Shown: positions 42,037 to 46,453 of the stretch, piece after piece | How positions within the stretch are numbered: the first letter of the stretch is position 1 | How the letters are laid out: each line of letters begins with the position of its first letter | The notes under the pieces: model-generated | Seen by the model: only the letters and a program-made list of their open reading frames with translations | Told to the model about the DNA's origin: nothing | The model's database searches: none | Origin: Halodesulfovibrio spirochaetisodalis | GTDB taxonomy: Bacteria > Desulfobacterota > Desulfovibrionia > Desulfovibrionales > Desulfovibrionaceae | DNA length: 64,000 nt | Assembly (NCBI RefSeq): GCF_001672295.1 | Contig: NZ_JXMS01000009.1 | Span: forward strand, 61,157-125,156 | Reading direction: 5' to 3' | Position numbers and translations under genes: made by a program

Positions 42037-42068
42037 AAAAGGCCTCTTTCATATGAAAGAGGCCTTTG
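42037..42068 (-). terminator. Terminator of tRNA-Asn copy 1
   Basis: Arms AAAGGCCTCTTTC and GAAAGAGGCCTTT around ATAT, directly 3' of the tRNA on the minus strand. Confidence 0.85.
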
Positions 42069-42073
42069 AAATC

Positions 42074-42149
42074 TGGCTCCTCGAGTAGGACTTGAACCTA
42101 CAACCTAGTGATTAACAGTCACCCGCTCTGCCTATTGAGCCATCGAGGA
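42074..42149 (-). tRNA. tRNA-Asn (GTT), copy 1
   Basis: 76 nt including an encoded CCA. The acceptor stem TCCTCGA/TCGAGGA, the anticodon loop CTGTTAA (anticodon GTT) between GGTGA and TCACT, and the T arm GTAGG-TTCAAGT-CCTAC are all intact. It is the most distal of six identical copies, separated from the others by a 1-kb insert that carries a membrane-protein gene. It has its own promoter (42186-42214) and terminator. Confidence 0.97.
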
Positions 42150-42185
42150 ATATTGTGTGCTTCGGTTTCCCTCAGCGCGAAAATG

Positions 42186-42214
42186 TGTTTACGGATTTGC
42201 ACCGTGCTCGTCAA
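42186..42214 (-). promoter_or_regulatory. Promoter of tRNA-Asn copy 1
   Basis: TTGACG (42209-42214) and TAAACA (42186-42191) with a 17-bp spacer on the minus strand. Confidence 0.7.
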
Positions 42215-42336
42215 TAAAAAAATATAATAAAAATGAAAAAAGTGAAAATGTGCCTGCTGATAGACGTGTGCAGAACAGAGCGTGTATGTTGCTGTGACGT
42301 TTTGGTGCAGGTGCAACTATTTGATTCTATAACAGA

Positions 42337-42987
42337 TTATTTTTTACTAAGACCATTTGGGGTGTAGGGAGACCACGTCATGTGTGATTCCCCGTCGTTG
42401 AGGGTGGTTAAGAACAGTTGTATTTTTTTGCCGTTATCAAGCTCACAAATTAACTTTCCCTCATAAAAGTCATCAAGGTCGGTGAGTCTGATGCATTTGG
42501 CTCCCTGATATGGCTCCGGAGTAGATGGATCTTTTAACAGCGTCGTAGCCATAGCAGGAAGGTATTCATTTGCAGAATCGTATTCAGCAATCATCATTGG
42601 AATAAGAACACAGGCAAGTGTTATTTGTACACTGAGGACAATGGTGGCAAGCCAGAAAGGTGTTTTGCTTTTTTTCAGAATATTGCAACGCTTCCATAAG
42701 TACGGCAGTCCAAGAATGATCCAGCCCCAGTGGGGTGGGGTGATACCTCGGTGCAAAAGCATTCTACGATCTATGCTGAGTAGAACTATTCCAAAAATAA
42801 ACGTCGTGGTGTCAGGAACATTGTCCAGAAGGGTACTGCTGAAGGCAACACCCATAACGAGCACTGGGTAAAAAATATACATCCAGATGCACCAGTCGCC
42901 ACTGGCTGCTGTTTGCAATTGTGCATTGTCAGTATTGAGTTCGTTGTCAGCAGGTGAAGGTGAGTTTGATACCACGTGTTTCCTCAT
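42337..42987 (-). CDS. Membrane protein of unknown function within the tRNA array
   Basis: 216 aa. A polar N-terminus of about 30 residues is followed by hydrophobic segments at about 33-52, 63-75, 85-98 and 113-134, and a soluble C-terminal domain (CIRLTDLDDFYEGKLICELDNGKKIQLFLTTLNDGESHMTW). No family recognised. No good ribosome binding site precedes the ATG. It stands alone between tRNA-Asn copies 1 and 2, in the same direction, so it may mark an insertion into the array. Confidence 0.6.
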   Translation of the reverse strand: MRKHVVSNSPSPADNELNTDNAQLQTAASGDWCIWMYIFYPVLVMGVAFSSTLLDNVPDTTTFIFGIVLLSIDRRMLLHRGITPPHWGWIILGLPYLWKRCNILKKSKTPFWLATIVLSVQITLACVLIPMMIAEYDSANEYLPAMATTLLKDPSTPEPYQGAKCIRLTDLDDFYEGKLICELDNGKKIQLFLTTLNDGESHMTWSPYTPNGLSKK

Positions 42988-43127
42988 TGTTATGTGTTGA
43001 TGTTGTCCAGAGCAATTTGACGTATTGCTTTGGAACAGGAGTACGTTGATATCTGTCTTGTACTGAGGAAAGTGTTAATGAGGTGTTAAGATCTTGTGAA
43101 TTAGTAAGTGGTGGGAAGATATAAATA

Positions 43128-43160
43128 AAAAAAGCCTCTTTCTTACGAAAGAGGCTTTTA
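43128..43160 (-). terminator. Terminator of tRNA-Asn copy 2
   Basis: Arms AAAAGCCTCTTTC and GAAAGAGGCTTTT around TTAC, with a T run on the minus strand. Confidence 0.85.
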
Positions 43161-43165
43161 TAATC

Positions 43166-43241
43166 TGGCTCCTCGAGTAGGACTTGAACCTACAACCTAG
43201 TGATTAACAGTCACCCGCTCTGCCTATTGAGCCATCGAGGA
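43166..43241 (-). tRNA. tRNA-Asn (GTT), copy 2
   Basis: Identical to copy 1 over all 76 nt, CCA encoded. Promoter at 43280-43308. It belongs to the first of two 328-bp tandem units. The 5' flank forms a leader hairpin TGAGG/CCTCA just ahead of the mature end. Confidence 0.97.
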
Positions 43242-43279
43242 ATATGTTTGCTTGAGGTGTTTCCCTCAGTGCGGAAAAG

Positions 43280-43308
43280 CTTTTATGGAAAAGTGGGTAG
43301 AGCGTCAA
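43280..43308 (-). promoter_or_regulatory. Promoter of tRNA-Asn copy 2
   Basis: TTGACG (43303-43308) and TAAAAG (43280-43285), 17-bp spacer. Confidence 0.65.
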
Positions 43309-43453
43309 GCAGAAAAAGTAAAAAAGAGTATTTTTTACTGATCATGATGCAGGAACTGCTTCTCTGAAGCGTTGTAACATTATATGGAGTGTTTTAGGTG
43401 CCAGCCAAATGGCTTGAGGGTGGAGATTAAATGTTGCGGCGGGGAGTTGCGCA

Positions 43454-43487
43454 TAAAAAAAGCCTCTTTCTTATGAAAGAGGCTTTT
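43454..43487 (-). terminator. Terminator of tRNA-Asn copy 3
   Basis: Same hairpin as for copy 2 with a TTAT loop. Confidence 0.85.
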
Positions 43488-43493
43488 GAAATC

Positions 43494-43569
43494 TGGCTCC
43501 TCGAGTAGGACTTGAACCTACAACCTAGTGATTAACAGTCACCCGCTCTGCCTATTGAGCCATCGAGGA
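43494..43569 (-). tRNA. tRNA-Asn (GTT), copy 3
   Basis: Identical to the other copies. Second 328-bp unit, 328 bp from copy 2. Promoter at 43608-43636. Confidence 0.97.
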
Positions 43570-43607
43570 ATATGTTTGCTTGAGGTGTTTCCCTCAGTGC
43601 GGAAAAG

Positions 43608-43636
43608 CTTTTATGGAAAAGTGGGTAGAGCGTCAA
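43608..43636 (-). promoter_or_regulatory. Promoter of tRNA-Asn copy 3
   Basis: TTGACG (43631-43636) and TAAAAG (43608-43613), 17-bp spacer; an exact copy of the copy-2 promoter. Confidence 0.65.
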
Positions 43637-43781
43637 GCAGAAAAAGTAAAAAAGAGTATTTTTTACTGATCATGATGCAGGAACTGCTTCTCTGAAGCGT
43701 TGTAACATTATATGGAGTGTTTTAGGTGCCAGCCAAATGGCTTGAGGGTGGAGATTAAATGTTGCGGCGGGGAGTTGCGCA

Positions 43782-43815
43782 TAAAAAAAGCCTCTTTCTT
43801 ATGAAAGAGGCTTTT
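43782..43815 (-). terminator. Terminator of tRNA-Asn copy 4
   Basis: Same hairpin as for copy 3. Confidence 0.85.
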
Positions 43816-43821
43816 GAAATC

Positions 43822-43897
43822 TGGCTCCTCGAGTAGGACTTGAACCTACAACCTAGTGATTAACAGTCACCCGCTCTGCCTATTGAGCCATCGAGGA
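43822..43897 (-). tRNA. tRNA-Asn (GTT), copy 4
   Basis: Identical to the other copies; 328 bp from copy 3. Its upstream flank belongs to the second flank type: leader hairpin GCTGA/TCAGC and a promoter with TATACA. It therefore joins the two duplication families. Confidence 0.97.
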
Positions 43898-43927
43898 ATA
43901 TGTGCTGATTTGCTCAGCGAGAAATTC

Positions 43928-43956
43928 TGTATACGGAGTCTGTGGATGAGCGTCAA
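43928..43956 (-). promoter_or_regulatory. Promoter of tRNA-Asn copy 4
   Basis: TTGACG (43951-43956) and TATACA (43928-43933), 17-bp spacer; close to consensus. Confidence 0.75.
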
Positions 43957-44165
43957 GTGGAAAAAAGGAAAACATGTGAATTTAGCCAGCTGTGATGTCC
44001 CGGTTCATCCTGTGAATGTTGGGAAAACATGCGATGGGTAGCAGCGAGAAATGGCTAGGTTTTGTGAAATTCTCATGATATAAGTGTGTTGTGAAATAGT
44101 AGAGAGTGTTCCGCCGCTAGCAGGATTTTGTCCGGCACAAGTCCGGTTGTTTTTGTGTTTGAAAA

Positions 44166-44198
44166 CAAAAAAGCCTCTTTCTTGCGAAAGAGGCTTTT
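44166..44198 (-). terminator. Terminator of tRNA-Asn copy 5
   Basis: Arms AAAAGCCTCTTTC and GAAAGAGGCTTTT with a TTGC loop. Confidence 0.85.
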
Positions 44199-44204
44199 GA
44201 AATC

Positions 44205-44280
44205 TGGCTCCTCGAGTAGGACTTGAACCTACAACCTAGTGATTAACAGTCACCCGCTCTGCCTATTGAGCCATCGAGGA
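44205..44280 (-). tRNA. tRNA-Asn (GTT), copy 5
   Basis: Identical to the other copies; 383 bp from copy 4. Promoter at 44311-44339. Confidence 0.97.
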
Positions 44281-44310
44281 ATATGTGCTGATTTGCTCAG
44301 CGAGAAATTC

Positions 44311-44339
44311 TGTATACGGAGTCTGTGGATGAGCGTCAA
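44311..44339 (-). promoter_or_regulatory. Promoter of tRNA-Asn copy 5
   Basis: TTGACG (44334-44339) and TATACA (44311-44316), 17-bp spacer; identical to copy 4. Confidence 0.75.
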
Positions 44340-44548
44340 GTGGAAAAAAGGAAAACATGTGAATTTAGCCAGCTGTGATGTCCCGGTTCATCCTGTGAAT
44401 GTTGGGAAAACATGCGATGGGTAGCAGCGAGAAATGGCTAGGTTTTGTGAAATTCTCATGATATAAGTGTGTTGTGAAATAGTAGAGAGTGTTCCGCCGC
44501 TAGCAGGATTTTGTCCGGCACAAGTCCGGTTGTTTTTGTGTTTGAAAA

Positions 44549-44581
44549 CAAAAAAGCCTCTTTCTTGCGAAAGAGGCTTTT
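44549..44581 (-). terminator. Terminator of tRNA-Asn copy 6
   Basis: Same hairpin as for copy 5. Confidence 0.85.
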
Positions 44582-44587
44582 GAAATC

Positions 44588-44663
44588 TGGCTCCTCGAGT
44601 AGGACTTGAACCTACAACCTAGTGATTAACAGTCACCCGCTCTGCCTATTGAGCCATCGAGGA
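44588..44663 (-). tRNA. tRNA-Asn (GTT), copy 6
   Basis: Identical to the other copies; 383 bp from copy 5. It lies next to the divergent lysS gene. Its upstream flank resembles that of copy 1 (leader CGCGCTGAGGGAAACC), so copies 1 and 6 may be the oldest, with the inner copies arising later. Confidence 0.97.
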
Positions 44664-44699
44664 ATATGTTGTGCTGCGGTTTCCCTCAGCGCGAAAAAG

Positions 44700-44728
44700 T
44701 GTTTAGAGAAAACATCTGGTGTCGTCAA
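44700..44728 (-). promoter_or_regulatory. Promoter of tRNA-Asn copy 6
   Basis: TTGACG (44723-44728) and TAAACA (44700-44705), 17-bp spacer. Confidence 0.7.
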
Positions 44729-44869: not shown

Positions 44870-46453
44870 GTGAGCGAACAGGAACAATCAAAACGTAAAA
44901 AAATAAAACTTCCCACAAAATCCGCACAGGCAGAATATTTCATGCCTATGCTGGAGAGCTTTGTTGACCGTGATGAGTTAAACGAAGTGGTGAAGAATAG
45001 AGTGGCAAAGTCCTGCGACTTAATGGATGCAGGCATTTCCTTGTACCCTAACGGGTTTAAGAAGGAAGATGATTTTTCTCAAATTCGTGCAGAATATGAG
45101 GGGCTTGATGCAGAAGAGCTGGAAACTCTTGATAAAGAGTTTGCCTGTGCTGGCCGTATTGTCGGTCTTCGCTCTTTTGGTAAGGTTACCTTTTTCCACG
45201 TTCTTGATAATAGCGGCAAGATGCAGTGTTATGCTGCCCGCGATTCTTTGGGTGCAGAACTGTACCAGAAGTTTAAGAAATTTGACATCGGTGATATTGT
45301 CGGTGTTGTGGGAACACTGTTCCGCACTAAAACAGGTGAGCTTACTTTGGAATGTAAGAGCGTGCAGCTTCTTACTAAATCCATTCGTCCGCTCCCGGAA
45401 AAATACCACGGCCTTAAAGACGTTGAGATTCGATACCGTCAACGCTACGTTGACCTTATTGTAACGCCTAAGACCCGCGAAATTTTCCGCAAGCGTACTG
45501 CGATTGTACGTGAGTTCCGCAGATTTATGGAAGATAACGGCTTCATGGAAGTAGAGACTCCTATGATGCATCCGATTCCAGGTGGTGCGACTGCTCGTCC
45601 TTTTGTCACCTACCATAATGCGCAGGAACATGACATGTTCATGCGTATTGCGCCGGAACTGTACTTGAAGCGCCTGCTCGTTGGCGGTTTTGAAAAAGTT
45701 TTCGAAATTAACCGCAACTTCCGTAACGAAGGTGTTTCTACCCAGCATAACCCTGAGTTCACCATGTGTGAATTTTACTGGGCGTATGCAACCTTTGAAG
45801 ATCTTATGGATCTTACAGAAGAACTTTTCGGACATATTGCACAGAAAGTGTGCGGTACTACTGTTATTACCTATCAGGGACAAGAAATTGACCTGACTCC
45901 GGGTACTTGGCGTCGTATCGGCTTCCTCGAATCTTTAAAAGTGATTGGCGGACATTCCGAAGAGCTTTACGAAGATTACGACAAGCTTGCTGCGCATTTG
46001 AAGAGTCGCGGGGAAAAAGTAATGGAAGGCGAAAAGCTTGCTAAGCTTCAGGCTAAACTGTTTGACCTTGATGTTGAACAGGAGCTTGTACAGCCGACCT
46101 TTATTTACAACTACCCGACAGAAATCTCACCGCTTTCCCGTAAAAACGAAGATGATCCTCGTTTTACTGATCGTTATGAATTATTCATGACTGGTCGTGA
46201 ACTTGGTAACGCATTCTCTGAGCTGAACGATCCTGTTGATCAGCGTCTGCGTTTCCTTGATCAGGTTGCGGAAAAAGAAGCTGGTGATGATGAAGCACAT
46301 TACATGGATGAAGATTACCTGCGTGCTCTTGAGTACGGTATGCCTCCGGCAGCTGGTCAGGGCATCGGTATCGACCGTCTTGTAATGCTTCTTACAGACT
46401 CCCCGTCAATCCGTGAGGTAATTCTCTTCCCACTCCTTAAACCGGAGAGTTAG
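44870..46453 (+). CDS. lysS: Lysyl-tRNA synthetase (class II)
   Basis: 527 aa. Charges tRNA-Lys. The N-terminal OB-fold anticodon-binding domain (AGRIVGLRSFGKVTFFHVLDNSGKMQCYAARD) is followed by the class II core with motif 1, motif 2 (FEINRNFRNEGVSTQHNPEFT) and motif 3 (GQGIGIDRLVMLLTDSPSIREVILFP). GTG at 44870 with GGAG seven bases upstream is the chosen start; a longer frame from 44804 lacks a site. It is slightly longer than E. coli LysS, with an extra charged N-terminus. It is followed closely by the lol-bam-lpx cluster. Confidence 0.95.
   Translation: MSEQEQSKRKKIKLPTKSAQAEYFMPMLESFVDRDELNEVVKNRVAKSCDLMDAGISLYPNGFKKEDDFSQIRAEYEGLDAEELETLDKEFACAGRIVGLRSFGKVTFFHVLDNSGKMQCYAARDSLGAELYQKFKKFDIGDIVGVVGTLFRTKTGELTLECKSVQLLTKSIRPLPEKYHGLKDVEIRYRQRYVDLIVTPKTREIFRKRTAIVREFRRFMEDNGFMEVETPMMHPIPGGATARPFVTYHNAQEHDMFMRIAPELYLKRLLVGGFEKVFEINRNFRNEGVSTQHNPEFTMCEFYWAYATFEDLMDLTEELFGHIAQKVCGTTVITYQGQEIDLTPGTWRRIGFLESLKVIGGHSEELYEDYDKLAAHLKSRGEKVMEGEKLAKLQAKLFDLDVEQELVQPTFIYNYPTEISPLSRKNEDDPRFTDRYELFMTGRELGNAFSELNDPVDQRLRFLDQVAEKEAGDDEAHYMDEDYLRALEYGMPPAAGQGIGIDRLVMLLTDSPSIREVILFPLLKPES

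Follow-up and report, generated by a model that had tools for sequence, protein, structure and literature searches.

The analysed window is a stretch of 64,000 nucleotides (nt) from the genome of Halodesulfovibrio spirochaetisodalis (RefSeq assembly GCF_001672295.1, contig NZ_JXMS01000009.1, positions 61,157 to 125,156). According to ARAGORN it contains exactly six tRNA genes, all of them tRNA-Asn(GTT) genes on the minus strand, between positions 42074 and 44663. The array is oriented away from lysS, its divergent plus-strand neighbour (44870..46453), which codes for a lysyl-tRNA synthetase, class II by Pfam, and whose GTG start is our own assignment. Each of the six genes is 76 nt long, forms a cloverleaf with a GTT anticodon and scores 69.2 bits with the Rfam tRNA model, for which the gathering score is 29. 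They are letter-identical over the whole 76 nt, the encoded CCA included, as the first-pass annotation had held when it described six indistinguishable minus-strand genes in one array. By promoter type the order of the units, starting at lysS, is A-B-B-C-C-D. Unit A occupies 44588..44663, the two copies of unit B 44205..44280 and 43822..43897, the two copies of unit C 43494..43569 and 43166..43241, and unit D, the farthest from lysS, 42074..42149, all six being recognized by both ARAGORN and Rfam. The unit types are our own grouping by promoter and leader, supported by BLAST comparison of spacer pairs (rows shorter than 45 bp omitted).

The spacing in the array is not uniform, as the A-B, B-C, and C-D spacer types differ among themselves. 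The A-B and B-B spacers, 307 bp each, are 100% identical in BLAST, and so are the B-C and C-C spacers, 252 bp each. Tandem Repeats Finder reports two exact tandem duplications, one with a period of 383 (43784..44669) comprising the unit B spacer with its tRNA, twice, and the other with a period of 328 (43125..43903) comprising the unit C spacer with its tRNA, twice; BLAST agrees with both. The repeat unit is one spacer plus one 76-bp tRNA gene, and the overhang of ca. 120 bp is the tRNA/terminator block common to neighbouring units. The locus thus shows the head-to-tail copies with identical spacers, in two pairs, by which tandem duplication is recognized. The last spacer, C-D, is 1016 bp long and houses an open reading frame (ORF) of 216 amino acids on the minus strand (42337..42987), without a Pfam match. 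Similar ORFs are present at the same position in two of the relatives described below, G005 and G008, and the C-D spacer of G001, 186 bp in size, has no room for one.

Every gene of the array is flanked by a promoter-like and a terminator-like signal. A TTGACG-N17-TANNNN element ends 30-38 nt upstream of each of the six genes, as TTGACG-17-TAAACA in unit A (44700..44728), TTGACG-17-TATACA in unit B (44311..44339, and 43928..43956 in the second copy), TTGACG-17-TAAAAG in unit C (43608..43636, and 43280..43308 in the second copy), and again TTGACG-17-TAAACA in unit D (42186..42214), all on the minus strand. Directly downstream of the CCA of each gene lies a CCTCTTTC/GAAAGAGG hairpin followed by a T-run, on the same strand. 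A generic terminator scan lists four of the six hairpins, those of unit A (44552..44581), the first copy of unit B (44169..44198), the second copy of unit C (43130..43159), and unit D (42038..42067), and misses those of the second copy of unit B (43786..43815) and the first copy of unit C (43458..43487); it finds 5 terminators against 2.7 expected. With a simple script both signals are found in all five array spacers. In the genus, TTGAC-N17..19-TA is located 28-46 nt upstream of 27 out of 27 units of nine genomes (G002 is omitted, a contig end cutting its upstream sequence), and in 24 of 24 distinct upstream sequences. In 500 dinucleotide shuffles it occurs in 0.13 of 24 on average and in 2 of 24 at most. 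The choice of this pattern followed inspection of the sequences, and the counted units are related to one another. Elsewhere in the genome, the spacers of a Met (36 bp) and a Phe (70 bp) tRNA array are without a promoter by the script, and these arrays are probably co-transcribed, which places the Asn array in the class of arrays built from separate units. The promoter and terminator proposed in the first-pass annotation for every copy are borne out as sequence signals in all six units, and with a predicted promoter and terminator of its own each Asn copy would constitute an independent transcription unit.

Sequence matches of lysS place the window in Halodesulfovibrio, the two nearest named records being metagenome-assembled genomes of this genus at 96% and 83%. 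The array was compared among the genome under study (G000) and its relatives in the genus, which fall into a clade with expanded tRNA gene sets (G000, G001, G002, G005, G008, and G009) and a sister clade (G003, G004, G006, and G007). In the expanded clade the number of tRNA-Asn genes adjoining lysS is six in G000, four in G001 and in G005, three in G009, and two in G008, vs. two in each of the four sister genomes. G002 is left out of this count, its array being split between contigs (C30 ends 2 bases beyond a tRNA-Asn gene and C63 starts inside one). Outside the genus, two tRNA-Asn genes lie beside lysS in G016. In a survey of 50 of 80 lysS loci, a single divergent tRNA-Asn gene accompanies lysS in 10 of 48 loci outside Halodesulfovibrio, and none was found within the available stretch in the other 38, some of which end short upstream; the remaining two loci have two tRNA-Asn genes (L055) and none (L054). 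Copy number thus turns over among the relatives (2, 3, 4, 4, and 6 vs. 2), and a constant six in all of them, which would have spoken against the first-pass annotation, is not what is found. The earlier suggestion that the array is a substrate for recombination is likewise supported. The promoter/leader types follow the order A-B-C-D in G001 and G005, while only A and D occur in G008. In G009 the two spacers between the three genes match at 604 of 606 positions, forming a near-exact 682-bp duplication, and the units are mosaic, with a D-like promoter end joined to a C-like leader. From the A-B-B-C-C-D order in G000, the A and D types of G008, and the mosaics of G009, the gain and loss of units and exchange between them can all be seen among the relatives. 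When spacers from different species are compared by BLAST, they align mainly at the end with promoter and leader and at the end with the terminator, an indication that selection maintains both ends.

The Asn array is one part of a change that concerns the whole genome. G000 has at least 113 tRNA genes (150 of 212 candidates were scored, so that counts of the large sets are lower bounds), of which 109 were typed by anticodon and four are rrn-linked Ile and Ala genes deduced from equal scores. The counts in the other members of the expanded clade are 93 in G005, 91 in G009, 89 in G008, 83 in G001, and 66 in G002, and in the sister clade 59 in G006, 57 in G007, 56 in G004, and 53 in G003, so that G000 has about twice the number of the sister clade. 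The six genomes with enlarged sets form one clade of the lysS tree, with support of 100/99 for protein and 100/100 for DNA. Further arrays in G000 comprise Arg(ACG) ninefold, Pro(TGG) sevenfold, Met and Phe sixfold each, and Ser(GGA) fivefold, with one sequence per array. A reading of the locus as singular is therefore not supported, similar or larger tRNA arrays being present across the same genome, and a runaway amplification of this single locus, raised in the first-pass annotation, is unlikely because the change is genome-wide and spans the whole clade. Anticodon typing gives 109 genes of 36 kinds in G000, 92 of 35 kinds in G005 (its assembly is without rrn-linked tRNA genes, and one weak match of 29.9 bits was omitted), and 59 of 41 kinds in G006; compared with G006, G000 has more tRNA genes and fewer anticodon kinds, the combination associated with fast growers. 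The Lys(CTT), Pro(CGG), Val(CAC), and Gly(CCC) tRNAs of G006 were not found by typing in G000 or G005. Many other tRNAs, Tyr and Trp among them, have increased in G000 as much as Asn. The third-position GC content in sampled genes is 0.45 in G000 vs. 0.71 in G006. Enlarged tRNA sets may also exist elsewhere in the family. G125, a closed one-contig genome of a related genus, has 78 tRNA genes and likewise contains arrays, with clusters such as one of eight Gly/Cys-like matches within 0.8 kb. Among the papers found for Halodesulfovibrio and tRNA, no title or abstract opening concerned tRNA arrays.

It is well known that tRNA genes commonly serve as integration sites, and the first-pass annotation had offered a decoy or anchor for integrating elements as one explanation of the array. 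There are eight tyrosine-integrase matches in G000, none of them on the contig of the array (no search for serine integrases was made), and apart from short matches to the hairpin and to other tRNAs the genome yielded no truncated copy of tRNA-Asn; on these grounds the anchor was rejected. A Pfam scan of ten array-side and upstream proteins gave no integrase, and ten proteins sampled in the upstream part of the window gave CI-like repressor and RecJ-like matches and no structural phage gene. An integrase combined with an attachment-site duplication beside the tRNA genes, as at an integration site, was not found here, tyrosine integrases being those covered. At another locus of G000, a tyrosine integrase (C45:64524-65269) lies ca. 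200 bases from a tRNA-Glu gene and marks a candidate integrated element, an arrangement that lends the idea some plausibility for this genome; as an account of the Asn array, a landing site or decoy is nevertheless extremely unlikely.

The most probable explanation, which we hold with fair confidence, is that a chromosomal tRNA-Asn locus next to lysS was enlarged by serial tandem duplication in the course of a clade-wide tRNA expansion. An array A-B-C-D would have been converted to A-B-B-C-C-D by two duplications of a spacer plus tRNA, with zero differences between the copies. Since the tRNA/terminator blocks of ca. 120 bp are nearly identical, unequal crossing-over between them could shift whole units, adding or removing them, and is the likely cause of the changes. 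Each repeat would consist of the terminator of one gene, the promoter of the next, and the 76-bp tRNA, and as a unit carries its own promoter and terminator, every gain would add one independently transcribed gene. The same duplication process would have raised the copy number of many further tRNA genes in the expanded Halodesulfovibrio clade, and its likely benefit would be that more tRNA, of fewer anticodon kinds, is available for fast translation.

Several observations weigh against this explanation. A generic sigma-70 scan misses the promoters of the array and shows no excess (4 found, 3.9 expected). The correlation between tRNA gene number and amino-acid use is weak in G000 (Spearman rho 0.47, p 0.06), vs. 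0.89 in the unexpanded G006, as calculated against a background codon set from mechanically picked ORFs, with Met (a mixture of three tRNA kinds) and Ile and Ala (rrn-linked and collapsed) excluded; the expansion therefore looks coarse rather than finely tuned to demand, and part of it may be neutral. Finally, G000 is a draft of 59 contigs and 3.61 Mb, on which the copy number of the array rests, and exactly equal successive spacers occur in 15 of 31 consecutive same-type pairs in G000, compared with none of the 14 pairs in G005 and not in the single pair of G006. The restriction of exact copies to G000 may reflect a recent burst, a collapse of exact repeats in the other assemblies, or an artefact in G000. 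If the last were true, the B-B and C-C duplications would be erroneous and the real array would be A-B-C-D, as in G001 and G005, an error for which the zero differences in both duplicated spacers, the fragmented draft, and the lack of exact spacer copies in G005 and G006 speak. However, assemblers usually collapse exact repeats instead of adding them, the array breaks two contigs in G002, three contigs of G000 (C21, C25, and C32) end within ca. 50 bases of a tRNA gene, and G009 has its independent near-exact duplication at the same locus, which make an artefact unlikely. Judging from the three contig ends, the assembly was probably held back by the arrays, so that the tRNA counts would be lower bounds.

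A further alternative to serial duplication with a dosage benefit is that the array is mostly the product of neutral drift, recombining repeats undergoing near-neutral gains and losses so that six copies would do functionally no more than two or three. The range of two to six copies among close relatives, the retention of only two unit types in G008, and the poor match of tRNA gene number to amino-acid use are in line with it. Yet the increase is one-directional, concerns many isoacceptors, and is found in six of six clade genomes, with a fall in anticodon kinds, and between species the spacers are conserved at their promoter and terminator ends but not in the middle; drift as the main cause is possible, if somewhat doubtful.

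A specific demand for asparagine codons, the driving force proposed among others in the first-pass annotation, is very unlikely. Its positive side is that in the S10-region ribosomal-protein cluster AAC is preferred over AAT (116 : 51 vs. 750:594 in the background, coding strand, Fisher p 9e-4), and to this extent the proposal is weakly supported; it fails in that gene number tracks amino-acid use poorly in G000, that the Asn share of codons is similar in G000 and G006 (ca. 3.7% and 3.0%) and unchanged while the tRNA-Asn copy number varies, and that Tyr and Trp tRNAs rose equally. More tRNA genes together with lower tRNA diversity have been linked to fast growth (Rocha 2004, as cited in PMC9981150), and the contrast between G000 and G006, as read from their gene sets, fits this pattern. 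For 16S genes, three were found in the draft of G000, six in the closed G006, and none in seven of ten genomes. The likely benefit of the array would be extra tRNA dosage for fast translation.

In E. coli, asnT, asnU, asnV, and asnW are four identical, separately transcribed tRNA-Asn genes. They resemble the present genes in being several and identical, and differ in not forming one head-to-tail array. In Pseudomonas fluorescens SBW25, laboratory lines gained tRNA genes by tandem duplication of 45-290 kb segments, for which RecA-mediated unequal recombination is one of the routes discussed (PMC7661048). The two cases share identical tRNA copies arising by tandem duplication and a raised dosage; they differ in that the units here are 328-383 bp long, with the exchange probably taking place inside the tRNA/terminator block, and are fixed in natural genomes and concern many isoacceptors. 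The tRNA array units described, e.g., in Mycobacterium are also carried by plasmids, phages, and prophages, one of them with 32 tRNA genes (PMC5966550). A high local density of tRNA genes is common to both; unlike those units, the present array repeats one isoacceptor with its own promoter-like signal per gene, and is chromosomal, beside lysS, with no mobile gene found nearby. The clade resembles the fast growers of PMC9981150 in its high number of tRNA genes and reduced tRNA diversity, while the contrast here lies inside one genus. The array is a well-resolved new example of an already known process.

A more speculative extension, to which we give little credence, is that the arrays act as a deliberately unstable dosage system, in which recombination-prone cassettes keep a spread of tRNA copy numbers in populations. 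If it were true, such cassettes would let populations change their translation capacity within a few generations, and the zero-difference copies, which occur in eight arrays of G000, would be the current state of this system. For the tRNA counts of such genomes in general, draft assemblies give lower bounds because arrays break contigs. The growth of tRNA gene sets has so far been mostly inferred from distant comparisons. In Halodesulfovibrio, one genus holds both ordinary (53-59 genes) and enlarged (66-113 genes) sets, and the spacers record single events of gain and loss, so that it offers a natural series well suited to asking if the number of tRNA gene copies is tied to growth rate or subject to drift.

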